This document shows, one piece after another, positions 47,429 through 63,897 of a stretch of DNA of 64,000 nucleotides; position 1 is the stretch's first letter, and each line of letters opens with the position of its first letter. The position numbers and the translations under genes are program-made. Source of the DNA: Bacteriovorax sp. MedPE-SWde (GTDB lineage: Bacteria > Bdellovibrionota > Bacteriovoracia > Bacteriovoracales > Bacteriovoracaceae). The stretch covers positions 124,001-188,000 of the forward strand of contig MPCU01000008.1 in the NCBI GenBank assembly GCA_001874305.1. Reading direction: 5' to 3'. The notes below the pieces were generated by a model. It ran no database searches. It was not told the DNA's origin and saw nothing but the letters and a program-made list of their open reading frames with translations.

Positions 47429-49114
47429 TTAATCGAATTTTGGAATGATTTCGATCGCCCCAGTAGGACAAGTTCTTACACACTCCATATCCATTGAACA
47501 TCTTCCAACGTTATCAGCATTTAGATGTGTCATTTTAGTTTTTGGATCAGATTGCCAAATGTCATGTGGGCAAATTGAAACACAGTTTTGGCAAGTCGCA
47601 CATACACTGTGGTCTAAGTGAATAGACTTCTTCTCGTCTGTAGCATCTTCAATAACTTCTGAAGAACCTAAAACCTTCGGTGAGTCTTTTATAATATCTA
47701 CTTTAACTGAGTTCGAATTACCTTTTGAAAAGAATTTCCCATCTCCCCTAGTAAGAACAATTTTGTCTCCATTATAGAGCTTCATTCTACTCTTAGCTTC
47801 ATCAATTACAGCTCTTTGATATCCAGGCGTATCTTCAGGATACTCATTAACTATAAATGGATAAACACCCCAAAAAAGACATACTCTTCTTGCGGCCCTT
47901 AAAGATGATGTAACAGCAGCAACAGGAGTCTGAGGTCTAAACATTGAAACCTTTAAACAAGAATTTCCACCTTCAGTTAAAGCGAGAATTCTCTTAGCAT
48001 CAACTTTTTCTGCAACCATTGATGATGCCACCATAAGAGCAGAGTTAACTGAAGAAAGATCCTGATGTCTTAGCAGTGGTCTCTCTTTTGGCTTTTTCTC
48101 GGCCTCAAAAATAATATCATTCATCATTTGAACTGACTCTACCGGATACATTCCAGAGGCCGACTCTCCTGATAACATAACTGCGTCCGTTCCATCCCAA
48201 ATTGCATTGGCAACATCACTCGCCTCAGCTCTAGTTGGTGTTGGAGCATCAGTCATACTCTCAAGCATTTGAGTTGCAGTAATAACAGGAATCATCCTCT
48301 CATTACATCTCTCAATCATATCTTTTTGAATAGAAGGAACAAGGTGGTTTCCAACTTCAACACCCATATCTCCTCGGGCAACCATAATAACATCTGTTAC
48401 ATCGAGAATTTCTTCTAAATTATCTACTGCTTGTGGTTTTTCTATTTTTGAGATAATCGGAATATTGGCCTTAAGCCTATGAAGTAAAGATTTTACTTCC
48501 ATGATATCTTCTTTTCTTCTAACAAAAGAAAGTGCGACGTAATCAATATCGTGTTTAAGAGCAAACATAAGGTCTTCACGATCTTTTTCAGTAAACGCTG
48601 GAGCAGAAACATCACAGTCAGGAAGGTTAATACCTTTATTAGACTTAAGCTCTCCACCAACACTAACTTCAATCTTATATACGTCTCTATCTCTTTCTAC
48701 AGCTTTCGCAATTAGTTTTCCGTCATCAAATAATATTCTCGCTCCATCATGACAGTCATCAACAAGCTTGTCGTAGATAGTTGGGATGTAGCAATCTTTA
48801 TATTCGGGATAGTCTTTAGCGTGTTTAGACTGACCAATAACCCAAGTTGAACCATTTTCAAGTTTTAATCCATCAGGGAGTTTATCAGTTCTAATTTTTG
48901 GACCTTGAAGGTCGATCAAAATAGCAATTTCTCTATTAGTATTCTTTGAGGCCTGTCTAATATTAGCGATGAGTTTTGCATGTCCCTCATGAGTACCGTG
49001 ACTCATATTTACTCTAGCGACATTTAGTCCCGCGTGAATTAGTTTCTCTATCATTTCAACAGTATTTGATGCTGGACCAAGGGTACCAACAATCTTTGCT
49101 CTTCTGACTTTCAT
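47429..49114 (-). CDS. pyk: pyruvate kinase with C-terminal ferredoxin domain
   Basis: A 561-residue protein. The start is ATG 49114 with GGAG upstream; the longer frame to 49156 has no support. Residues 1-~480 are a complete pyruvate kinase: GTLGPAS, ARVNMSHG, ISKIEKPQAV, VARGDMGVE, ITATQMLESM, and WDGTDAVMLSGESA. After a ~20-residue linker comes a second domain: C505-x2-C508-x2-C511-x3-C515-P, then C539-x2-D542-x2-C545-x3-C549-P. That is a two-cluster ferredoxin pattern in which the second motif has Asp where Cys is expected, as in Pyrococcus ferredoxin. I know of no common pyruvate kinase with such a tail. Confidence 0.92.
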   Translation of the reverse strand: MKVRRAKIVGTLGPASNTVEMIEKLIHAGLNVARVNMSHGTHEGHAKLIANIRQASKNTNREIAILIDLQGPKIRTDKLPDGLKLENGSTWVIGQSKHAKDYPEYKDCYIPTIYDKLVDDCHDGARILFDDGKLIAKAVERDRDVYKIEVSVGGELKSNKGINLPDCDVSAPAFTEKDREDLMFALKHDIDYVALSFVRRKEDIMEVKSLLHRLKANIPIISKIEKPQAVDNLEEILDVTDVIMVARGDMGVEVGNHLVPSIQKDMIERCNERMIPVITATQMLESMTDAPTPTRAEASDVANAIWDGTDAVMLSGESASGMYPVESVQMMNDIIFEAEKKPKERPLLRHQDLSSVNSALMVASSMVAEKVDAKRILALTEGGNSCLKVSMFRPQTPVAAVTSSLRAARRVCLFWGVYPFIVNEYPEDTPGYQRAVIDEAKSRMKLYNGDKIVLTRGDGKFFSKGNSNSVKVDIIKDSPKVLGSSEVIEDATDEKKSIHLDHSVCATCQNCVSICPHDIWQSDPKTKMTHLNADNVGRCSMDMECVRTCPTGAIEIIPKFD

Positions 49115-49158
49115 AATGCTCCAAAAATTTTCTAATTTGCTTATATATTTTAGCATGC

Positions 49159-52388: not shown

Positions 52389-54152
52389 TCAATTATGCGA
52401 CAATTGTTGCAAAAATTCGTTATACATGTCCGACTCTTTAACTAGCCTATCGTGCTTTCCTTGCGCGATAAGTTGACCATCCTTCATAACTAGAATTTGA
52501 TCTGAATCTACAATAGTCTCGATTCTGTGAGCAACGATAAAAGTCAGTGCATTTTCTTGAACGATTAAAACCATCTGCCTTAGAGCAAATTCTAAATTAG
52601 AATCTAGTGATGATGAAATCTCATCAAACAGAACGATTGGCTTTTTCAAATAGCATGCTCGAATAGCAGCAATTAACTGCTTTTGACCAAGCGATAGTTC
52701 ATTCTGCTTAATTATGGTCTCAGGACCTATTCCCCACTGATCAATATATGCAATTTTCTCTCTTACCCATTCCCAGAACTCAGGAAAGTCACTAGTATCC
52801 ATTTTACCAAGAGTAATATTGAAGAAGATAGACTCTGAGAAAATATGAGAGTCTTGTGAAACAATTCCTATTAGCTCTCGATAGTCATTGAATTTCTCAG
52901 CGTTGTGAAAGTCAAAAACAAACTTCTTATTACCAACAGCACAAATATCAATCTCACCATCATCAGGAATAATATTGGCACAGAGGATATTGAGAAGAGT
53001 TGATTTTCCACTTCCAGACAAACCAACAATACCAATAAGGTCTCCCTTATTCCCTTCAAATTGAACATTCTTTAATTCAAATGGAGTATCATCGTCGCTC
53101 TTACGTGGATAACAAAAGCGATCTATCTTTACTATTATCTTTTCAACTTCTAATGACATTGGCACTTTATTAAGATCAGTACTTCTCTCACCTTCAAGAT
53201 CACCAAGAAATTCGTTGATCCTTTGAACACCTGATGCTGCTCTTTGAATATTAGCAACTTTTGATGAAACATCTTTAATTGGACCAATAGATCTTTGAAT
53301 TAAATCTACAAAAGCAAAAATCAACCCGACTTGTACCATCTCAGCATGTGGAATAATAAATACAGCAAATGCTAAAAATATTGGATAAAGAGATTCTGCT
53401 AATGAGTAGTAAGAAGCATCCCAAATATTAGAAAGTAGAATTTTATCTAAGAAGTTTTCAAATACTACCAATGATCTCTTAGAAGCATAGTTGCCATTCT
53501 TAATATAATAAGACTCTCTAACTCCACCAATAACATCGGCAATTGTTTTATATAGTTCACCTCTGGCCTTTCTTACTTTAAGAAAGATTTCTCTCATGTA
53601 CTTAGAACTCCAAACAAGAAGTAGACATGCACCGATTTGAACAATACCAAGTGATACACCTGCAAACTTATTAAGAGTTATAAAACTAATTAATGAAGAG
53701 AGAACAAAGAAGATATCTATAATGATTCCAAATGTTCCAGATGTCACAAGCTCACGTAGAGACTCAGTATCAGTCATAATCCTTGCGAGGACTTCCCCTT
53801 GAGGATAACGATCAGTTCTATTTTCTTTTGATGTTTGAAGCTCATATGAAAGTAGCCACTTTTCATAACAATAAGAGCGTACAAACTGAACTAGCCCAAC
53901 CACATACTTATTAATAATGATGTTGTAACCAGCACGGTTTACAAAAGTTAACGTGAAGATAACAGCTAAGTACTTAAGCGTTTCTAAGAAAACGACTTTA
54001 TCTTCATATGATGAAGTAAGCTTTGCCATTAGTTGAGGTAAACTTGCTCCTAGTAGTGACGAAAGTACTAAGCATATAAACATCATGGCGAAGAATTTAT
54101 AAGAACCCTTATAGAGAATAAATCTAGATAAGTTGCTTTTTGAAGTGTTCAT
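52389..54152 (-). CDS. ABC exporter half-transporter, catalytic partner
   Basis: A 587-residue membrane-ATPase fusion. I prefer ATG 54152 (AAGGAG ten bases upstream); a GTG at 54161 is possible. Six membrane helices lie in about 20-310. The ATPase has Walker A GLSGSGKST (~379), signature LSLGQKQ (~485), Walker B VLFDE with catalytic Glu (~508), and H-loop AHR. It overlaps the next-upstream transporter gene by 29 bases. No N-terminal C39 peptidase domain. With its neighbour it should form a heterodimeric type IV exporter, a likely exit route for a peptide product. Confidence 0.9.
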   Translation of the reverse strand: MNTSKSNLSRFILYKGSYKFFAMMFICLVLSSLLGASLPQLMAKLTSSYEDKVVFLETLKYLAVIFTLTFVNRAGYNIIINKYVVGLVQFVRSYCYEKWLLSYELQTSKENRTDRYPQGEVLARIMTDTESLRELVTSGTFGIIIDIFFVLSSLISFITLNKFAGVSLGIVQIGACLLLVWSSKYMREIFLKVRKARGELYKTIADVIGGVRESYYIKNGNYASKRSLVVFENFLDKILLSNIWDASYYSLAESLYPIFLAFAVFIIPHAEMVQVGLIFAFVDLIQRSIGPIKDVSSKVANIQRAASGVQRINEFLGDLEGERSTDLNKVPMSLEVEKIIVKIDRFCYPRKSDDDTPFELKNVQFEGNKGDLIGIVGLSGSGKSTLLNILCANIIPDDGEIDICAVGNKKFVFDFHNAEKFNDYRELIGIVSQDSHIFSESIFFNITLGKMDTSDFPEFWEWVREKIAYIDQWGIGPETIIKQNELSLGQKQLIAAIRACYLKKPIVLFDEISSSLDSNLEFALRQMVLIVQENALTFIVAHRIETIVDSDQILVMKDGQLIAQGKHDRLVKESDMYNEFLQQLSHN

Positions 54153-55782
54153 AAACAGCACTCTCCTTATCTAATTTAGAAACATCTAAAGTCTCAACGA
54201 GTCCTTTAGTTTTTTCTATAAGTGTTACAGCATCGCTCAGAAGAACCGTTGTATAACGGTGCCCTGAAATTATTAATGTCTTATCTTTAAGTAAATTCAG
54301 CTCACTTAACTTATCGAGTATTTGCTTTTCTAAAACAACGTCAACTGAGGAGAATGGATCATCCCATAGAATGACCTCTGCATCAGTTAGTAAACTTTTA
54401 ACAAGTGAAACACGTTTGGCCTGTCCACCAGAAAGGCGTTTGCCATCTTCACCTACAACAAGTCCAAACAAAGACTCTCTAGTAGATGCAAGGTAATCAA
54501 GCCCAAAAACATTTAATAGCTCATAAGCAAGATCAAGTTTCTTCTCATCTAACTCATTTCCAAGCTTAAGGTTTTCTAAGATAGATCCGTTATAAAGATA
54601 TGGGTCTTGAGCTACAAAGGAGATATTCTTTCCTTGATTCTGTAGAATTTGAGCAATCTTTAAAATCATCTCAGTCTTACCATGTCCCGTCTCTCCAACG
54701 AGAATAGACATTTTATTTTTTTCAAAAGTTAAATCAAAATCATGATCCCAATATGGAAATGAGAAGTTCATTGAACTATCTGTTTGTGAAAATGACTTGT
54801 CTCTTTTTAAAATCTCTTCCATTTCTGATTCAGTTCTAAGGTCTTTAACTAATTCTCCAACTCTCGACCATGCTCCTGCCGAGCGAGTGAAGACAACCCC
54901 AATCCATGAAAGAAACATTATTGGCTCTAAGAATAGAAATACAAAACCAGAAAATAAAATTAAAGATGTTGCACCAAGGTCTTGTTGAAAAATTATATGT
55001 GCACCCCAAATTAAAGAAAGCCCTACCCCTGTTGGGACTAAAGGTATAGAGATTGCAACTCTCTGCCCGGCCTTATAGAAGTTTATTAGTTCCTTCATTG
55101 AGTGTGACTTAAATAATTTAATGAAAGCACTTTCAGAGTGAAAGTTCTTAATTGTTCTCTTTCCAAGGTAACTTTCTATAATAAAGTTTTGTACTTCCCC
55201 CTGAAGATCTTGTGTGAGTCGATAGAACTTCTTATTCTTTGAAACAATTATAGTAAAAATTATAAATGCTACAAAGACTGGAGTTAGTGCTATGAAGATC
55301 CCTTTATTAAAGCTCATAAGCTTAGGAACTAAAACAGATAGAGCTATAATGATATTGGCGACCTGTAAAAGTGCAAAACCAATTAAGGCCCTAACTTCCT
55401 CGAGGTCACTTCCTATAACCTGAAAGATCTGACCTTTAGAATGATCTTTATAACGATAAGGTGAAGCCTTTTCGAGTAGATCCACTATTTCAAAACGTAG
55501 AAACTTCTGAAGAACTCGAGCCGGGTAAAAGAAAAGTAAACGAGATGATGTTCTAAAAACAACTATCCCTACAGCAAGAAGAAATAACTTAGAAACTGGA
55601 TAAGTAGCTCCTGTAGAAATTTTGTCTGCAAGATCCTTTGCTATGAAAGGAAGTTCACTTTGTATGTAATGAGTAAGGTAGAGGCAAATAAAGGCCCCTA
55701 GGTAAAAATACCAAAACTCAAAGAATTGTTTTACTAGTAGATTAACAAGGCCTAGATGTAGCCTTCTTTTGCTGGTTGTCAT
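54124..55782 (-). CDS. ABC exporter half-transporter with degenerate catalytic site
   Basis: A 552-residue membrane-ATPase fusion, six helices in about 15-310. Walker A GETGHGKT (~362), canonical signature LSGGQAKRVSL (~451), Walker B ILWDDP (~472) with Asp where the catalytic Glu is expected, and H-loop SGHRYT. A canonical signature here and a degenerate one (LSLGQ) in the partner is the usual asymmetry of heterodimeric exporters. No C39 peptidase domain, so leader removal must be done elsewhere. Starts 43 bases after the small unknown gene upstream. Confidence 0.9.
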   Translation of the reverse strand: MTTSKRRLHLGLVNLLVKQFFEFWYFYLGAFICLYLTHYIQSELPFIAKDLADKISTGATYPVSKLFLLAVGIVVFRTSSRLLFFYPARVLQKFLRFEIVDLLEKASPYRYKDHSKGQIFQVIGSDLEEVRALIGFALLQVANIIIALSVLVPKLMSFNKGIFIALTPVFVAFIIFTIIVSKNKKFYRLTQDLQGEVQNFIIESYLGKRTIKNFHSESAFIKLFKSHSMKELINFYKAGQRVAISIPLVPTGVGLSLIWGAHIIFQQDLGATSLILFSGFVFLFLEPIMFLSWIGVVFTRSAGAWSRVGELVKDLRTESEMEEILKRDKSFSQTDSSMNFSFPYWDHDFDLTFEKNKMSILVGETGHGKTEMILKIAQILQNQGKNISFVAQDPYLYNGSILENLKLGNELDEKKLDLAYELLNVFGLDYLASTRESLFGLVVGEDGKRLSGGQAKRVSLVKSLLTDAEVILWDDPFSSVDVVLEKQILDKLSELNLLKDKTLIISGHRYTTVLLSDAVTLIEKTKGLVETLDVSKLDKESAVYEHFKKQLI

Positions 55783-55825
55783 TCGAAAATATTACTAAAG
55801 TATGTATAAGAAGTCACATTTCATT

Positions 55826-56287
55826 TCAGCTATTAACAAGAAACTCGGCCTTAAAGTAACTCACCGTATCCTTCACCTGAGACAGCTTACTCTTTTCAAA
55901 ATCCATGAGATCTTTGGTTTTTAACTGGTCCAATGCCAATTGATAGATTTTATTTATTTCAACACTCGTACCGAAGGGCGAAAAGAACTTGTCTGTCCCC
56001 ATAAATAGGTCCTGATCAGAGAGTGCAGTCATAAAGTCCTCACTAAAGTACTTCTCTAGAAGTTTTGCATAGACGATCGCCACGGAGTACGACTTTGCAG
56101 GGAAGATTATGTCTCCTCCCTCTAATAGAAAATACCCTACAACTGCATCAACAAGCTCACTTTCTCTAAGCTCTATAACGCGATGAGATATATCAGCAAT
56201 GTAGTCAGAGATCTCACTTGTTTTGTGGTAAATCTCTTGGTTAATTTTATAGTCTTTCATGCCATTTAATAAGGTTATAGAAGCCAT
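55826..56287 (-). CDS. small protein of unknown family inside the radical SAM cluster
   Basis: A 153-residue soluble helical protein. ATG 56287 is chosen because GAGAGGA stands 7-8 bases before it; it then overlaps the end of the radical SAM gene by 41 bases. No motif recognised; visible are a hydrophobic core LVDAVVGYFLLEGGDIIFPAK and no cysteine at all, so it is not a radical SAM fragment. Position suggests an accessory protein for the modified peptide, such as a carrier, immunity factor or peptide-binding domain. Confidence 0.65.
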   Translation of the reverse strand: MASITLLNGMKDYKINQEIYHKTSEISDYIADISHRVIELRESELVDAVVGYFLLEGGDIIFPAKSYSVAIVYAKLLEKYFSEDFMTALSDQDLFMGTDKFFSPFGTSVEINKIYQLALDQLKTKDLMDFEKSKLSQVKDTVSYFKAEFLVNS

Positions 56288-57182
56288 TGCAAGAATCCTC
56301 TCTACTAGTAACAACTCTCAAGTGCTCACTTAGGCAACGGCCAAGGTATTCACAATCGTTACAAAAAGAGTTTCCCCCTACTTTAAGCTTCTCATTATTA
56401 CTCCACTCTATATATTCTTCTATTTTATCTATCTTAAGAAATAGCTCTCGATCTAATTCGTCAAAGTCTAATACCGCGAGACTTCCATCGGGCGTAATAT
56501 AAATATGGTCATCAGAAAAAGAGTTAGTAATCCCTGACGACACTCCTTTTAGATTTTCTTCATTTACAAAGATATAATCTTTATCAATTTCAAAAACCTT
56601 TTTAACAAAGTCTTCGTATTCGCTAAATTTGATTTTATAATGATTTGCCTGATTAAAAGAATATGGCTTTATCTCAAGACTCTTAATATTTTCTAGACGA
56701 GAGATATTGCTAAACACACTCTTTATTTCGTTCAAAGACCAGTTAACAACCTCAACCCCTGCGAGCATTAAGAGGTTAATGTCTCGACCAATATCTTCCA
56801 TATTCTTTAAAACTTCTTGGGATTTTCTCCTAACATTTCCTTCCCAGCTAACTGATAGAGAAATGTCTTTTCGCTTAAAGAAAGGATTAACTTTACTCAA
56901 GTTTGTAATAGCATTGAAATCAACACTCTCCAGATCAAAGAGGTCTGCGATCTGATTAAGATAAGATTCTTCGAGAAGAGCTATTTCTCCTCCATACAGA
57001 TCAACACAATCAATATTAAAGAACTTCTCTATCTCAGCAATTCGTTCCCTAAGGGTACTAAGAGATATTGTCTTTCTATCAGAAAGCTCTTCTTTCGTTA
57101 AATAGCAAAAGTTACAATCAAAATTACAGAAGTAAGTCGGGTTTATAGATAGAGTAATCGACGGCTTATTTTTAGTGCTCAT
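56247..57182 (-). CDS. radical SAM protein with reduced SPASM-like C-terminus
   Basis: A 311-residue protein from ATG 57182, which lies inside the end of the upstream radical SAM gene (11-base overlap). The catalytic motif C-x3-C-x2-C is CNFDCNFC (Cys19, 23, 26); the GGE motif follows in VDLYGGEIALL. The C-terminus has C-x2-C-x5-C (CNDCEYLGRC) and a later Cys (SCNGFY), a short form of the SPASM/twitch cluster site. It should modify a peptide with SAM-derived radical chemistry. Part of a five-gene minus-strand run ending in the exporter. Confidence 0.88.
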   Translation of the reverse strand: MSTKNKPSITLSINPTYFCNFDCNFCYLTKEELSDRKTISLSTLRERIAEIEKFFNIDCVDLYGGEIALLEESYLNQIADLFDLESVDFNAITNLSKVNPFFKRKDISLSVSWEGNVRRKSQEVLKNMEDIGRDINLLMLAGVEVVNWSLNEIKSVFSNISRLENIKSLEIKPYSFNQANHYKIKFSEYEDFVKKVFEIDKDYIFVNEENLKGVSSGITNSFSDDHIYITPDGSLAVLDFDELDRELFLKIDKIEEYIEWSNNEKLKVGGNSFCNDCEYLGRCLSEHLRVVTSREDSCNGFYNLIKWHERL

Positions 57183-58170
57183 TGAGATCAACAATTCTAT
57201 TTGCTAATGTTTTCATTAGAGAGCAATGGTCATCAATCATTTCATGTCTCTTAAGGTCTTGAATCGTTTTCTTACATCCATTACAAATGGAGAACATTGG
57301 ACATGTATAACACTCATCTTTAAGAGAGTTTATTTCATAGACCTGACTAAGAGGAAGAGTAACTTCTTTTGAGGCCATTTCTTTATCAAAGTCAATTGGG
57401 TATTCATCATCGTCACCAAAGGCACCACAACTATAATAGTCCCCTTCAGGTTGAAGACATCGAATGTTTTTGTCACAGTCTCTATTTTGAGGACAGACAG
57501 TATTACTCCCACGAAGCCTCTTAATCATCTGCTTGGAATTAAACTCCCAATCCAGAAGGCCTTCATCGATTACTTTTAAATATAGTTCATAAATTTTTGA
57601 CAATTGATATGGGCGACTTTGATCCCCTGAGGCCATTGCATAATTAAGCTTACACTCAACACCCATTCGCTTTGCAAGCCTCACATTATCTATTGCAGTA
57701 TCTTCATTTTCTTCTGCAACAACGGAGATAAAGTCTGGTCGATATCCAATCTTCTCTAGGAACAAGTTAGATACTTTCCAAAAAATATCTTCTGTAAAAA
57801 CTTTAGACTTAGTAATACGTCTTGTTTCACCATAATTAAATGAAGTCGTAACCCCTACTCTTTCATTCTTAAATATATCAACCCACTTATCTGGTCGCTG
57901 ATAGAAATCCCAAAGGTTAGAAGTTAAACTAATCGTAGTAGGCATCTCCCTCTGGTCTAAGAAATTAATGAGTTTATCATAGTACGAAGGGCTCATTATT
58001 AGTGGGTCACCACCATTAACTATAATTGTGTTTGTATCAGGGAACCTATCAAGAAACTCAAAGACCTTGTCTAAACTTAAGACACTCTTTTTACTCTGAG
58101 AAATATTTGTCGAGCTACAAAAAGTACATGCAAAGTTACATATCTCTGTTGGCTTAATAATGAGTTCCAA
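57172..58170 (-). CDS. radical SAM/SPASM protein
   Basis: A 332-residue protein. The start is probably TTG 58170, five bases after AAGGGG; GTG 58176 is the alternative and would overlap the ribosome site. Radical SAM motif CNFACTFC (Cys11, 15, 18) and VNGGDPLIM. The C-terminal half has a full SPASM pattern: early cysteines (VCPQNRDC, RCLQPEG, YSCGAFG), then CYTCPMFSICNGCKK and a last Cys (HCSLMK). SPASM enzymes carry auxiliary Fe-S clusters and modify peptides. First gene of the minus-strand run, divergent from the radical SAM gene at 58254. Confidence 0.9.
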   Translation of the reverse strand: MELIIKPTEICNFACTFCSSTNISQSKKSVLSLDKVFEFLDRFPDTNTIIVNGGDPLIMSPSYYDKLINFLDQREMPTTISLTSNLWDFYQRPDKWVDIFKNERVGVTTSFNYGETRRITKSKVFTEDIFWKVSNLFLEKIGYRPDFISVVAEENEDTAIDNVRLAKRMGVECKLNYAMASGDQSRPYQLSKIYELYLKVIDEGLLDWEFNSKQMIKRLRGSNTVCPQNRDCDKNIRCLQPEGDYYSCGAFGDDDEYPIDFDKEMASKEVTLPLSQVYEINSLKDECYTCPMFSICNGCKKTIQDLKRHEMIDDHCSLMKTLANRIVDLNEH

Positions 58171-58197
58171 TAACACCCCTTGTCATATTTAATAAAA

Positions 58198-58226
58198 TTG
58201 TTATTCCTAAATAGATAATATAATAT
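58198..58226 (+). promoter_or_regulatory. possible promoter for the plus-strand radical SAM gene
   Basis: TTGTTA (58198-58203), 17 bases, TAATAT (58221-58226), in the 83-base gap between divergent radical SAM genes. The region is so AT-rich that chance matches are likely. Confidence 0.35.
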
Positions 58227-58253
58227 TTTATATAGAAATCATAATGGAGTCAC

Positions 58254-59336
58254 ATGTCGAATGATCTAATGGTCTATTTAAAGACAACTGATACTTGTCA
58301 GCTGAACTGTAATCACTGTTTTACTAATGGAAGTAATGGTAAGAAAGGTTTTTTTGACCCGAAGGCCACTATTGATTTCTTCAGAAGATTAAAACATCTC
58401 AATATATATTCAGGTCGTGGAAATATCTCTCTACATGGAGGAGAACCACTTCTATGTCCAAAAGAGACTATTTTTGAAGCTTGGAATGGTATCAAAGAGA
58501 TCTTTCCTGAAATGTGGTGGTCTATGCAAACCAACCTCACATACAAAATCACAGACGATAAATACGAAATCTTCGACAAAGTATGTGAGAAGTCCTGGGG
58601 AACATCTTGGGACTATAAAATTCGCTGGACTGATGAAAAGCAAGAGAACCTGTGGCGTACCAATGTTAAGAATATGGCCGAAGCTGGTCACAATATAACA
58701 GTTATGGTTAGCCTTTCAGGAAATGTTATTAGAAATAAAGAACCTATTGAAATCATAGATGATATGGCATCTCTTGGTGTAAAGCATATTAACTTTGAAA
58801 GAGTAACTGCAAATGGAAATGCACTGCAGTTTATAGATCAAGGAATTATGCCTTCTAATATTGAGCTTGATAAATGGCTTCACAGAATGTGGGAGCAAAC
58901 TAAGCTTCACCAGACATGGAAGTATATTGATAATATGTTTTTAGACTCGATATTATCTTCATTTGTTTATCAAACATATTCTGGATGTCGATCAAGATCA
59001 TGCGAGCAAAAGATCTTCACATTAAATGCAGATGGAACAGTTGGTGGCTGTCCAAACAATGCAGTAGAGAAAACCTATGGTCGAATAACTGATGAAGTTG
59101 CCACTCTTCTTTCAAGTCCGAATAGACTTTGTAATATTAGCTCTGAAATGAATAGAGATCTTCCATGTATGACGTGTCCCGTTTTTGATATCTGTAACGG
59201 AGACTGTTACCAGCTTTCTTGGCAAGATGATATTTGTGCGGCCCCAAAATCTCTAATGACTGACTTAAAACTCAACTCACAAAGAGACCTAGGGCTATAT
59301 AAAGAAGTACTAGATGGTTTTATGGGGCAGGAATAG
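58254..59336 (+). CDS. radical SAM/SPASM protein
   Basis: A 360-residue protein. Radical SAM motif CQLNCNHC (Cys15, 19, 22), GGE motif in LHGGEPLLC, and a SPASM C-terminus: CRSRSC, GTVGGCPNN, then CMTCPVFDICNGDCYQ and DDICAAPK. The pattern resembles peptide-modifying enzymes of the anSME type. TGGAG stands before the ATG. It overlaps the unknown gene 59320-60102 tail-to-tail by 17 bases, which places it right against the precursor operon. Confidence 0.92.
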   Translation: MSNDLMVYLKTTDTCQLNCNHCFTNGSNGKKGFFDPKATIDFFRRLKHLNIYSGRGNISLHGGEPLLCPKETIFEAWNGIKEIFPEMWWSMQTNLTYKITDDKYEIFDKVCEKSWGTSWDYKIRWTDEKQENLWRTNVKNMAEAGHNITVMVSLSGNVIRNKEPIEIIDDMASLGVKHINFERVTANGNALQFIDQGIMPSNIELDKWLHRMWEQTKLHQTWKYIDNMFLDSILSSFVYQTYSGCRSRSCEQKIFTLNADGTVGGCPNNAVEKTYGRITDEVATLLSSPNRLCNISSEMNRDLPCMTCPVFDICNGDCYQLSWQDDICAAPKSLMTDLKLNSQRDLGLYKEVLDGFMGQE

Positions 59337-60102
59337 TTTCTAAGTAGTTTCCAACCTTAACTAACTCGTCCATGCTGACAGTACCAGTGGCATGGGCAGC
59401 GAACATTTGAAAAACCTCATTTTCATCACAGAAAAAGAACTCAAAAAGGTTCTTCCCTCTAAAGATATATTCATCAAATTGCTGCTTAAAGTACTTTAAC
59501 TCTGTTCTTGGTTGTACAAGAAAGAATAGCTCCATAAATGATGGAATGGAAAACATCTTAACAACATTTGCCCCAATATAGAGAACATCATCAATAATTT
59601 CAAAATTGTGCTCAAATTCAATTTCATTGAGTGGAATGTCATCGCTATCTTCGATTTTCTTTTTTAAACATTTTTGAGAAAAGATCATTGTACTCTCAAT
59701 GAACTGCTCCCAACGATAACAGAGACCTTCATTTCTTTTAAAGAATTCTTTTCTCTCATCTTCAGTAAAGATCAGGTTACCAAAAACCTCGTCGACATTG
59801 ATTCCTCTGATATAGAGAATTAACGCCGCGACATTTATTCTAAGAGAGTCTGCTGTAACGATATTTCGCGTTTCCATAAATGACTTTATCGCCTCTTCTT
59901 TTTCTTCAAAAGAGCAATTTGAAAAATCAAATTCAACAGGCAGTTCAAGATTAGAAACATAGTTATAAAGAACAGTTCCCTTAATCTCTATTTTTGAATA
60001 GTCTGCAATATAGACATTATCTTTATTTTCAATAAACTCTTTAAGTTCTTCAACTTTTAGAGGTAGTGAAACTTCTTTTAAAGTTTTATTATTCTCGCTC
60101 AC
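59320..60102 (-). CDS. unknown protein coupled to the putative precursor gene
   Basis: A 260-residue acidic soluble protein, not recognised. It starts at GTG 60102, which shares a base with the TAG stop of the precursor gene (TAGTG), with GGGAGAAGA upstream, so translation is coupled. The first ~90 residues alternate Lys/Glu-rich strands and helices; the rest is rich in Phe and Glu (LFEFFFCDENEVFQMF). Three cysteines, with no metal-type spacing. It could be a peptide-binding chaperone, a recognition element or an immunity protein; nothing in the sequence settles this. Confidence 0.7.
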   Translation of the reverse strand: MSENNKTLKEVSLPLKVEELKEFIENKDNVYIADYSKIEIKGTVLYNYVSNLELPVEFDFSNCSFEEKEEAIKSFMETRNIVTADSLRINVAALILYIRGINVDEVFGNLIFTEDERKEFFKRNEGLCYRWEQFIESTMIFSQKCLKKKIEDSDDIPLNEIEFEHNFEIIDDVLYIGANVVKMFSIPSFMELFFLVQPRTELKYFKQQFDEYIFRGKNLFEFFFCDENEVFQMFAAHATGTVSMDELVKVGNYLETIPAP

Positions 60103-60722
60103 TATCTTCTCCCTCTAGAGCTGTGACAATTATCATGACAAGCACTATGACAAACCTGAATAGCAACAGTACTGCTCGTCATATGATCAATGACAATTGC
60201 TCTAAGTCTTTCAATAAGAGCGTTTACATCCGCTTCCGTTGCAACATTTCCAGAAGTAAATGGTGTTAATACATCTGTTCCATAGCTTCCGCCTCCAGCG
60301 ACGTAACTTCTAAACGTTGCTATATTCATACGATAAGAGTCGTTTAAAGCGGAGATTGTATTCGAGTATATATTTGTCCAAGAACTTGGAGAATCTGCAT
60401 AATCACCTCCAGAGTTTGAATACCCTATTGGTGTATTTGCTCTTGTCATAGTTGCACTACGGATTGATGTTAGATTGTAGGCATAGAACTGAAAGAGATC
60501 CACCATCGCAGAAACTGTTAGCTTTCCACCAGCGACAGAAACCTGAGTAAAGTTAGATGGGTCAACAGCATAATCAGAAGAATAAACTAAAGGACTTGTT
60601 CCTTTCAATGCCGGAATAGCGTAGTTCTTATCTCTATCGATATAAGTTCTTGCGGCCTCAATTACTCTCGTATTGAAGTAAGCTATCTTACTATTCTTAT
60701 CTACCGGATCACCTGCCGACAT
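60102..60722 (-). CDS. putative RiPP precursor with C-terminal (CHxx)3-RGRR
   Basis: A 206-residue protein with AGGAGG before its ATG. Residues 1-~185 are cysteine-free and rich in Ser, Thr, Tyr, Ala, Gly and Asn (for example GYSNSGGDYADSPSSW), with a helical stretch EADVNALIERLRAIVIDHM. The only cysteines are in the last 17 residues, VCHSACHDNCHSSRGRR: three Cys-His pairs spaced exactly four residues apart, then a basic end. It is flanked by a radical SAM-like gene 14 bases upstream and the coupled unknown gene downstream. A long leader with a short Cys-containing core at the very end is the usual layout of modified peptide precursors. The core limits and the modification are not known. Confidence 0.7.
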   Translation of the reverse strand: MSAGDPVDKNSKIAYFNTRVIEAARTYIDRDKNYAIPALKGTSPLVYSSDYAVDPSNFTQVSVAGGKLTVSAMVDLFQFYAYNLTSIRSATMTRANTPIGYSNSGGDYADSPSSWTNIYSNTISALNDSYRMNIATFRSYVAGGGSYGTDVLTPFTSGNVATEADVNALIERLRAIVIDHMTSSTVAIQVCHSACHDNCHSSRGRR

Positions 60723-60736
60723 TAGTCCTCCTAGAC

Positions 60737-61636
60737 TTAAAGCTGTTCTAAAAATTCTACCAGTTTACTAGAGAATGGACAATCTTTGAGTTTAATATCA
60801 TTCAAAACGCTAAGGACATTCCTATCCGTACAGATATTTAAATTACGACAAGTTTTGCATGGCATCAGCCCGGCAACTTCAAACTGACTCATCATTAAGC
60901 TATTAATTTTCCCCACAATACTACTAATACTGAGATTCTCCAGTTCCAAAGATTTAAAATCAAGAGATAGTGGCTCATAAAGCGTAGGAATAACGAAAGT
61001 ACCATTCTCTCCAACCCTTACACGCGCCCTAGAAAAGAGATTACGGTTTCTCTCACCAAGAGAAACGAGAAAGTTCTGGTAGCCAGTACTCCTTCCAAGC
61101 TCTTCAAAGAAGTTTTTCCAAAATTGAAGATCTGCAACTAGCTCGGTGTAGTTCTTTACTTCTATATGCCTAATAAGTATTTCAAACTCTTTATTCGAAA
61201 GAGTTGTAAACTTCTCTTCTATTTCTAAGTTGATCAGAGGGATATCATTCACGTCTCTCTTATTAACAAAGAAAGAAAATCGAGGGGTCCTAGAAAGTAC
61301 AGCGCTAACACTTGACACAAACTCCTTCACATTAAGTAGAGAGTTCATACTTATATCAACATTAAAGTAAGTTTGGGTTTCTTCTATCTGTGAAAGTATC
61401 TCCAAGCTATTGGAAGAAATTGGCAAATCTCCTAATCTAATATTAATACCTAGACAAATCTTAGGGTTATTTTTTAAGAAATTAGTAATTTGAGTCATAC
61501 TTTCGCGACAGCGAGGTATTTCGAAGAGCTCTAGCTCTTCAATCCTATGATCAGGGCCAGGGATCTCACCTAAAGAAGCAAAAACCTCAGAATATCTCTC
61601 GCTAGAAAGAGAATCTATATGAAAACTTAAATCCAT
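60737..61636 (-). CDS. radical-SAM-like protein without the catalytic CxxxCxxC motif
   Basis: A 299-residue protein. The C-terminus has C-x2-C-x5-C-x16-C (CKTCRNLNIC ... KDC), the same spacing as in the two radical SAM proteins at 61721 and 62821. The N-terminal part has only one cysteine (IPRCRES) and no C-x3-C-x2-C, so it cannot bind the usual catalytic cluster. The strand/helix alternation is compatible with a decayed radical SAM barrel. It probably serves as a substrate-binding partner. It ends 14 bases before the precursor gene and is divergent from the radical SAM gene at 61721. Confidence 0.7.
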   Translation of the reverse strand: MDLSFHIDSLSSERYSEVFASLGEIPGPDHRIEELELFEIPRCRESMTQITNFLKNNPKICLGINIRLGDLPISSNSLEILSQIEETQTYFNVDISMNSLLNVKEFVSSVSAVLSRTPRFSFFVNKRDVNDIPLINLEIEEKFTTLSNKEFEILIRHIEVKNYTELVADLQFWKNFFEELGRSTGYQNFLVSLGERNRNLFSRARVRVGENGTFVIPTLYEPLSLDFKSLELENLSISSIVGKINSLMMSQFEVAGLMPCKTCRNLNICTDRNVLSVLNDIKLKDCPFSSKLVEFLEQL

Positions 61637-61720
61637 ACTAAAGTTTTATCCTTTCTTAAGATAATTAACAACTCTGATTAAAAATATTTTATAATTAAAG
61701 AACTTAACAAGGGTTAGTGC

Positions 61721-62824
61721 ATGCCGATCATAAGTAGAAATTTTGAAGCTATGTCTATAGCGAAGAGTACAAAGAAGTCAGTGAGTGAACTGGGTGATTA
61801 TACAATTAGAATAAACCTAGAATTTCTAAAAGGGTGTGAATTTACATGTCCAGGCTGCTACGTAAATAGAAGTAATGACTTTACCGTTGATGACTTAAGT
61901 ATGGTGGAAGATGCAGTAACTAGCTTTCAAGAGAGTGGTTTTAACTTTGATGAAATAATCTTAGGTCCGACAGACTTCTTCTCTGCCCTTAACTGTGACC
62001 AAGTTCTTAAGAATGCTAAATTTAGAAGTATTTTTAAGTCTTCTGATATAACTCTAATATTAATTTCTACTCTTCAAACTAAAGAAGAAGAAATAATTAG
62101 AAGAATAAAGCTTCTAAACGACAGTATTAATAGTGAATGTGATATTGAGTTTCTCATTGTATTTGATCTAGAAAAGATTCTAAGTAAAGATCAAGACTAT
62201 ATAGAAGAGATCAAAAGAAAGATTAAGCTATTGGATAACGTTAAAGCAGATGTCGATTATGCGTTCCAAATTAATATCAGAGATATTAATGGCCTCGAGA
62301 ATTTTAATCTGTTGGAATTAACAAGCTATGTTCGAGATGAGTTTGATACGATTGTTGAGTTTAATCCATCTTTTCTAAGGTCTTCCAATGAAAAGAATAT
62401 TCATGAAACTCTTCATAAGTGGAACAACTTATTAGCTCACAACTATTCTAAGATAGAAGCTAAAGATGTTAAGAATGTTCTCTTTACTATGGGGAATAAA
62501 AATCATGCAAGTCTTAGTGAAGTAACCTACAACTATAAGAATGGTACTTTCTATACATGTCCATTTGTTTACGAAAATATTTTCAATACAGGTGAGCGCT
62601 TTAAAATCAATGCCACAGGAGACAATGGTAGGTACAAATTAAGCGACTTTCATGATCATAGAAATAGAACAACGGTTGAACAATTGCAATATAGTGAAAA
62701 GACTCGAGAATGCTCAAGCTGTAATCACCTACTCTCTTGTGTAGGTAAGCAAGTTCTCCAGTTCATGGAAGAATATAAGATAAAGACATGTCCACTCGCT
62801 AAAGAAGTAATGGACCTCTACTAA
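61721..62824 (+). CDS. radical SAM protein, ILGPTDFFSA subgroup
   Basis: A 367-residue protein. Radical SAM motif CEFTCPGC (Cys39, 43, 46), then EIILGPTDFFSALN where most family members have a GGEP loop, and the C-terminal C-x2-C-x5-C-x16-C (CSSCNHLLSC ... KTC). It is clearly paralogous to the gene at 62821-63897 (ELILGPTDFFSARN, same Cys spacing). AAGGG stands before the ATG. Its stop overlaps the convergent paralogue's stop by four bases. Confidence 0.88.
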   Translation: MPIISRNFEAMSIAKSTKKSVSELGDYTIRINLEFLKGCEFTCPGCYVNRSNDFTVDDLSMVEDAVTSFQESGFNFDEIILGPTDFFSALNCDQVLKNAKFRSIFKSSDITLILISTLQTKEEEIIRRIKLLNDSINSECDIEFLIVFDLEKILSKDQDYIEEIKRKIKLLDNVKADVDYAFQINIRDINGLENFNLLELTSYVRDEFDTIVEFNPSFLRSSNEKNIHETLHKWNNLLAHNYSKIEAKDVKNVLFTMGNKNHASLSEVTYNYKNGTFYTCPFVYENIFNTGERFKINATGDNGRYKLSDFHDHRNRTTVEQLQYSEKTRECSSCNHLLSCVGKQVLQFMEEYKIKTCPLAKEVMDLY

Positions 62825-63897
62825 AAGATTTCTTTAAACTCTTCGGGAAAGATACAGTCAGTCTTACCACGAACTTCCATAAAGTTAAGAACATTTCTCC
62901 CCACACATGGAGTTAGATATGAGCATTGCTCACAATTACTAGTTTGTCCTGCGTACTGATAACCTTTTGTTTGAAGTCCTGTATGCATTGCAAGAATCGA
63001 ATCCGCACTAAGATCATCAACAAGAAATAAATCACTCTTATCAATTATCTGCTCATAGATAAACGGACTAAAGAAAACTTTATCATCGAGAATATTAAGA
63101 CATATTGTATTAGCTGTATTGTGATGCTTATCAACACTTGTAAGACATAGATCACGATGATCACTCTTACTAAGAACATCTTGAAGAAAACCTTTCCAAT
63201 ATGATAGTTTTCCATCAATTAGCTTGTTGTTATTTGTTCTAAAAAATCCTGGGTTAAACTCTAAGATAGTATTAAATTCTGTTTTTATAAATTCAACAGT
63301 TTCAGCATACTTCTCTCTAAGTACTTCATTATTTCCAATATTAACAACATATGACCAGTCGATAACCTTAGGTGAGTTATTTTCAAAATGATTTAATGCC
63401 CACTTATTCTCATCTAAATACACCTGATCTCTATCAAGCATTTTATTAGAATTTAAAGGTACAAGAAATTCTAAAATCATGTCTTTTCTATAAAAGCTTT
63501 CGTTATCTAAAATATTAAATATTTCAAGGAAGTTCTCCCTATCCATATTACTAAATACACAAGAAGCAGTAATTCTAGTTTTCTCGTTAAAACTAAGAAG
63601 CTTTTGAAAGTAAGGATCTTTTAAAATTTCTATTGTATTTCTTGCACTAAAGAAGTCTGTTGGACCTAGAATAAGTTCTCTAAACCTAAGGCCCTTTCCT
63701 GTAAGATCCTCTGCGATCTTACATGCGTTCTTTAGAACCTCTGACCAATCACCTTTACGTTCTTTTTGAATGAAGCAGCCATCACAGAAGTGAACACAGC
63801 CGTTTAAGATATCAAGGTTTAAGACAAAGTCCATGCTGTTAATATTATCAACATTTGTCTTACACATTTTTCCTAAAAAACCAGTCTCAATAACCAT
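62821..63897 (-). CDS. radical SAM protein, ILGPTDFFSA subgroup, paralogue of 61721-62824
   Basis: A 358-residue protein. Radical SAM motif CVHFCDGC (Cys34, 38, 41), ELILGPTDFFSARN, the block EFNPGFFRTNNNK (EFNPSFLRSSNEK in the paralogue), and C-terminal CEQCSYLTPC ... TDC with the same C-x2-C-x5-C-x16-C. AGAGG precedes the ATG. It lies tail-to-tail with its paralogue. Confidence 0.88.
   Translation of the reverse strand: MVIETGFLGKMCKTNVDNINSMDFVLNLDILNGCVHFCDGCFIQKERKGDWSEVLKNACKIAEDLTGKGLRFRELILGPTDFFSARNTIEILKDPYFQKLLSFNEKTRITASCVFSNMDRENFLEIFNILDNESFYRKDMILEFLVPLNSNKMLDRDQVYLDENKWALNHFENNSPKVIDWSYVVNIGNNEVLREKYAETVEFIKTEFNTILEFNPGFFRTNNNKLIDGKLSYWKGFLQDVLSKSDHRDLCLTSVDKHHNTANTICLNILDDKVFFSPFIYEQIIDKSDLFLVDDLSADSILAMHTGLQTKGYQYAGQTSNCEQCSYLTPCVGRNVLNFMEVRGKTDCIFPEEFKEIF

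Follow-up and report, generated by a model that had tools for sequence, protein, structure and literature searches.

A putative radical-SAM cassette for modifying the Cys/His tail of a fibre-associated protein in phages and Bdellovibrionota

The radical-SAM (rSAM) gene cluster at the end of the window (the whole stretch of 64,000 nucleotides analysed here) is probably the cellular form of a phage-borne cassette, a dedicated system that would modify the C-terminal tail of a fibre-associated protein. The system is apparently widespread and undescribed; the literature searched, which covered few subscription journals and preprints, yielded no description of such a phage or Bdellovibrio rSAM system. 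With somewhat less confidence we favour the wider reading that this is a post-translational modification system of a new class: a phage cassette would remodel a (CHxS)3RGRR tail, and predators would display the modified tail on pilin-like fibres of phage origin in order to attach to prey. What would be new is the complete system; its enzyme superfamilies are already known.

The eleven open reading frames listed by an earlier sequence-only reading of the window were all present at the positions given there. The window end cuts the cluster, and the next 1.7 kb of the genome (L009:1979-3576) encodes two further proteins, one Cys-rich and 177 aa long, the other an intact rSAM enzyme, the sixth of the cluster. 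The genes of the cluster and of its continuation are as follows.

52389..54161, minus strand: ABC half-transporter, a local neighbour not conserved with the system
54124..55782, minus strand: ABC half-transporter, likewise a local neighbour not conserved with the system
55826..56314, minus strand: H protein, a 162-aa ORF (phrog_20737), recurrent in phage cassettes
56247..57194, minus strand: rSAM D
57172..58176, minus strand: rSAM C (phrog_1802)
58254..59336, plus strand: rSAM A (phrog_1802)
59320..60102, minus strand: K protein, 260 aa (phrog_20767), the unnamed constant partner of the CH-tail protein
60102..60722, minus strand: CH-tail protein, 206 aa, the proposed substrate, with the tail motif CHSACHDNCHSSRGRR at 60105-60152
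60737..61636, minus strand: B-family relative without CxxxCxxC, probably non-catalytic
61721..62824, plus strand: rSAM B1 (phrog_31457)
62821..63897, minus strand: rSAM B2 (phrog_31457)
L009:1979-2512, plus strand: Cys-rich secreted-looking protein, 177 aa, between rSAM B2 and rSAM F; none was seen in related loci
L009:2515-3576, beyond the window end: rSAM F, 353 aa (phrog_1802), with an intact CNIVCDFC
L009:3956-5143, beyond the window, after rSAM F: S74 pilin-like protein
L009:5151-5705, beyond the window, after rSAM F: G2

Elsewhere in the window, a pyruvate kinase (47429-49156, minus strand) has a C-terminal ferredoxin-like extension (CATCQNCVSICP...CVRTCPTGA), as judged by eye.

The proteins at 56247, 57172, 58254, 61721 and 62821 have an intact C-x3-C-x2-C motif, which is missing from the one at 60737, as had been read from the sequence before; counting rSAM F past the window end, six proteins carry it. 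A C-terminal CxxC-x5-C motif is common to all six window proteins (the five rSAM enzymes and the protein at 60737), and the SPASM/twitch auxiliary Cys region was matched by TIGR04085 with 28.3 bits (cut-off 27) for the enzyme at 58254 and 24.1 bits for that at 57172. No NCBIfam equivalog or subfamily model of a named rSAM maturase reached its cut-off with the window enzymes (best model: 52 bits; cut-off: 300), no sequence match to rSAM A or rSAM C was found among solved structures, and the NCBIfam and Pfam family searches returned no class for the 206-, 260-, 162- and 299-aa proteins. The cluster matches no named class, in line with the earlier reading, which knew of no class with this exact set. 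The PHROGs search assigned nearly the whole set to phage families listed as function unknown or generically as 'radical SAM', with phrog_35144 corresponding to the tail part of the protein at 60102. Overall, the sequences support the earlier view of a multi-rSAM cluster for polypeptide modification, with a Cys/His-rich C-terminus as its putative target.

In homologues of the CH-tail protein from five other Bdellovibrionota genomes every C-terminus reads CHxxCHxxCHxxRGRR. This tail was converted to a DNA pattern without the stop codon for exact scans. Nine of 369 Bdellovibrionota genomes matched, with one match each, and none of the 369 matched the reversed control pattern, so the tail pattern is not a product of chance. 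Most of the 87 tail-pattern matches in genome contigs were set aside as chance matches in repetitive DNA, in which the frame does not stop at the motif. In IMG/VR at least 120 matches were found, and in 116 of the 120 listed the motif forms the very end of an ORF. With the codons of the pattern restricted, 21 contigs matched, 12 of which were already in the first IMG/VR list, an overlap from which roughly 200 viral contigs in total are estimated. The Gly of RGRR was kept in 123 of 138 sequences although the pattern did not require that position, and at the positions just ahead of each following Cys or Arg, likewise left free, 107-125 of 138 had Ser; the resulting consensus tail is CHxSCHxSCHxSRGRR-COOH.

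Outside the tail the family diverges widely (about 20% identity, lengths of 126-364 aa), with one Arg (R88) almost invariant. The AlphaFold2 model of the 206-aa protein is folded over residues 1-190, with a confident domain at approximately 10-190, and has a loose 16-residue tail (end mean pLDDT 54-58), and the protein is predicted to be a folded domain with a flexible tail and not a small-peptide precursor; at this length and with this fold it does not have the layout of a short leader plus core. What the sequence-only reading called a 'small Cys-tailed protein' is this 206-aa protein with its predicted fold. Neither the CH-tail protein nor K, for which a confident AlphaFold2 model was also obtained, had a useful PDB match in Foldseek or VIA searches.

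The linkage of the CH-tail protein with K was examined in the reverse direction, using K as sole query. The sequence-only reading had held that rSAM homologues occurring routinely without the 206-aa protein would take away the novelty. For marker K this was not the case: the CH-tail protein was found in 78 of the 80 viral loci retrieved, and in 16 of the 17 K-bearing Bdellovibrionota genomes a Cys/His-tailed protein ending in R[GS]RR is encoded near K on the same contig. The two viral exceptions are a locus with a two-repeat tail (L335, CHSNCHINRSRR) and one whose sequence breaks off just before the expected position of the tail gene (L311), and in the seventeenth genome (G204) K and the tail protein lie on separate contigs. 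These 17 genomes, out of 369, include all nine with the tail pattern (P 8e-14), and the divergent tails near cellular K include CHGNFPPPCHGSRGRR and CHSSHSSHSSHSSRGRR. The anticipated co-occurrence of the 206-aa protein with rSAM enzymes was likewise borne out.

Genes in 142 loci were labelled using local HMMs. The recurring order is a tail-fibre-like gene called TF (assigned to tail fiber PHROG 19602 or, in the jumbo phages, to PHROGs for virion structural or tail proteins), cupin, rSAM A, CH-tail protein, K, M, rSAM F, sometimes a B12-rSAM, 2OG-oxygenases, rSAM C, rSAM D and H. In the 85 viral loci flanked on one side by 4 kb or more, rSAM genes were present 83 times and K 72 times; TF lay upstream in 38 of 51 viral loci in which the upstream flank reached 4 kb. 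This adjacency to tail-fibre genes is no more than suggestive, TF being a common phage family that is present also in the cassette-less Campylobacter phage CP220. That phage served as negative control: neither K nor a CH tail was found in the first 150 of its 177.5 kb, and it was rejected as a member of the system on these grounds. CP220 (FN667788) has a different multi-rSAM block at 70690-77721, with an amidinotransferase and sugar-nucleotide transferases and with neither CH tail nor K.

Cultured carriers of the CH-tail cassette are Agrobacterium phage Atu_ph07, Sinorhizobium phage Phosso, Burkholderia phages SURPRISE13, FLC6 and FLC8, and Pseudomonas phage pPa_SNUABM_DT01. Cultured phages were found with K and rSAM A as queries; tblastn with two CH-tail proteins gave no match among them, probably because of the fast divergence of these proteins and the active low-complexity filtering. 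The cultured jumbo phages keep the same gene order, and the four CH-tail proteins read all end in the motif. In Atu_ph07 the CH-tail protein is gp170 (C-terminal peptide CHSSCHASCHNSRSRR), and a 296-aa Atu_ph07 protein of the same length as gp170 is among the viral matches of the CH-protein model. ESI-MS/MS of Atu_ph07 virions defined a cluster 'CDS 170-215' (PMC6102473), the numbering of which agrees with RefSeq, gp215 being the capsid protein in both; from the boundary of this cluster at CDS 170, gp170 is probably present in the virions.

Some phages have a second type, in which the fibre gene is directly followed by a tandem pair of CH-tail proteins, each about 130 aa long (125-140 aa), and then mainly by B-family enzymes, with a very divergent K (L108, L132, L141, L161, L177, L193 and others). 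A divergent K of this type had no match among cultured phages. One 151-kb viral contig (IMGVR_UViG_3300025138_000014; L186 and L202) contains both a tandem and a canonical cassette, each behind its own fibre gene.

The cassette has been exchanged repeatedly between viruses and cells, including phages and predators, as at least four virus/cell changes lie on strongly supported branches of the rSAM A tree. The nearest relative of the window rSAM A is an enzyme of another Bdellovibrionota family (62% identity), and its counterpart in the jumbo phages Atu_ph07 and Phosso is 46% identical.

The sequence-only reading had further assigned the cluster to a RiPP pathway that makes a small peptide, with the ABC pair as its exporter. 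The proposed modification and the novelty held up, and the small exported peptide did not: the putative substrate is folded and has about 200 aa, and exporter and protease are not conserved in relatives. The half-transporters matched only general MsbA/SmdA-type models, far below cut-offs, and an ABC exporter pair was found in the window locus only and in none of the other cellular or viral loci compared, for which reason it is regarded as a local neighbour and was rejected as a part of the system. No peptidase family recurs in the cellular or viral loci. A classical RiPP, in which the ABC pair would export the cleaved tail as a small modified peptide, perhaps a bacteriocin or a metallophore, agrees with the rSAM enzymes, the Cys/His-rich C-terminus and the adjacent transporter genes of the window; it is nonetheless unlikely, as exporter and protease lack conservation, the carrier part would be a folded domain of about 190 aa according to the model, and an exported peptide would be of little use to lytic phages, in which the same cassette adjoins tail-fibre genes.

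We give a similarly low probability to the possibility that the tail is a carrier for a small molecule or cofactor that is later released, or that the rSAM enzymes are phage auxiliary metabolic genes. Scaffold-peptide pathways exist, and the literature reads phage rSAM genes as metabolic or heme-related; yet the genes co-occur tightly with one tail protein and with tail-fibre genes, and the cassette lacks matching metabolic pathway genes. It is very improbable that the tail stays unmodified and forms a metal or heme site which the enzymes mature: the variants CHSSHSSHSSHSSRGRR and CHGNFPPPCHGSRGRR keep the enzymes yet lose the Cx3CH and multi-Cys spacing, and among the cassette genes none for cytochrome maturation was seen, even though the Cys/His spacing of the tail would suit such a site and CHxSCH contains the heme-c-like Cx3CH.

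The proposed modification of a fibre-associated tail gains a cellular counterpart from two genes which most cellular clusters adjoin, encoding the S74 pilin-like protein and its partner G2 (about 190 aa). The pilin-like neighbour begins with an N-methylation motif (PF07963) and ends in an S74 chaperone domain (PF13884; 59.9 bits in L009:3956-5143), which is a domain of this neighbour and not of the CH-tail protein, and it matches phage tail-fibre PHROGs with E-values down to 1e-25. G2 occurs in 20 of the 369 Bdellovibrionota genomes, 15 of which carry K (P 1e-20). Among the five without K, three have a different rSAM cluster and another Cys-tailed protein (ending, for example, in CICNSDCNCNAVCNCHNNCGCHY), one is truncated at a contig end, and one has rSAM genes nearby, where such a Cys tail was looked for and not found. 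By eye, G2 (L009:5151-5705) resembles the C-termini of TF proteins (AD..Y..G....V.GI.S; L228:5614-7437, L039:1218-2519); a profile comparison of the two was negative (probability 1-9%), and homology is therefore not claimed.

The second class of Cys tail (CxCNxDCxCN...) was found in G2-bearing Bdellovibrionota (L355:15365-15928, L356:6806-7315, L358:9386-9838) and in viral loci (L361, L365, L370, L374, L375). In phages it directly precedes an S74-like C-terminal part (GVMAQDLL...KVDYKKLPI; read by eye). Since S74 domains cleave themselves off fibres (PMC10769870), such a tail would become the new C-terminus, which by analogy supports a display of the modified tails at fibre ends.

As a mechanism for the preferred reading, in which the tail of a fibre-associated protein is modified, we propose that the CH-tail protein folds and leaves its flexible C-terminal (CHxS)3-RGRR free, as predicted by the model. 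K, in many loci together with M and H, would act as a recognition or scaffold protein, a role to which the constant linkage points. Several rSAM enzymes with SPASM/twitch-like Cys motifs would then put several different modifications on the tail, helped in relatives by a cupin/JmjC-like protein, 2OG-Fe(II) oxygenases and a B12-radical-SAM enzyme. This mix of enzymes suggests more than one kind of modification, on Cys, His, Ser or Arg, and the enzyme families make Cys/His/Ser cross-links, hydroxylations and methylations the candidate chemistry. From the gene context, the modified protein would be incorporated into the tail fibre in phages and into a surface fibre, probably based on the S74 pilin-like neighbour and G2, in predators, where the modified tail would serve attachment to host or prey. 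If this is true, phages and bacterial predators use radical chemistry to tailor their attachment apparatus, RiPP-like chemistry would act, unusually, on a structural protein that is folded, and the 'metabolic' rSAM genes of cassette phages may really serve attachment. A putative function is hereby offered for PHROGs 1802, 4992, 20767, 20737, 31457, 35144 and 36207, so far listed as 'unknown function' or generically.

Among known systems, rSAM/SPASM maturation of RiPPs (DynA/DarE, YhhB, TIGR04083; NCBIfam) is similar in its CxxxCxxC and SPASM-like Cys motifs and in a Cys-containing C-terminus encoded next door, here the target by inference. It differs in that the present target is folded and about 200 aa long, exporter and protease are not conserved, the best model scores far below its cut-off, the unnamed families K, M and H are involved and the carriers found are mostly phages. 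The His-Xaa-Ser (Hxs) system also pairs rSAM enzymes with short His/Ser repeats at the target, comparable to the variant tail CHSSHSSHSSHSSRGRR; here, however, HxsB (18.4 bits, cut-off 370) and HxsC (27.3 bits, cut-off 267.9) stayed below their cut-offs, the tail has Cys and an invariant RGRR end, and K, M and H are not part of Hxs. The MAT fibres with which Bdellovibrio recognises its prey have the S74 chaperone domain of phage fibres in a predator as well (PMC10769870), whereas the neighbour described here starts with the pilin N-methylation motif instead, and MAT fibres have no described modification system. Many rSAM genes have been reported from Campylobacter phages CP220/CPt10 (PMC2853527) and from a TARA T4-like genome with 12 of them (PMC5332604), and the rSAM cassettes of pelagimyophages are variable within a region near the tail fibres (PMC7029224); the TARA and pelagimyophage genomes are likened to the present system from their descriptions, whereas the jumbo phages FLC6 and SURPRISE13 (PMC8066314, PMC11898562) carry this very cassette. 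None of these five papers ties the rSAM genes to a substrate, and such genes have been a puzzle since the report of Campylobacter phages with 11-12 of them, and they have been interpreted as auxiliary metabolism. A dedicated substrate with an invariant tail, encoded beside tail-fibre genes, makes this puzzle directly testable in the present phage group.
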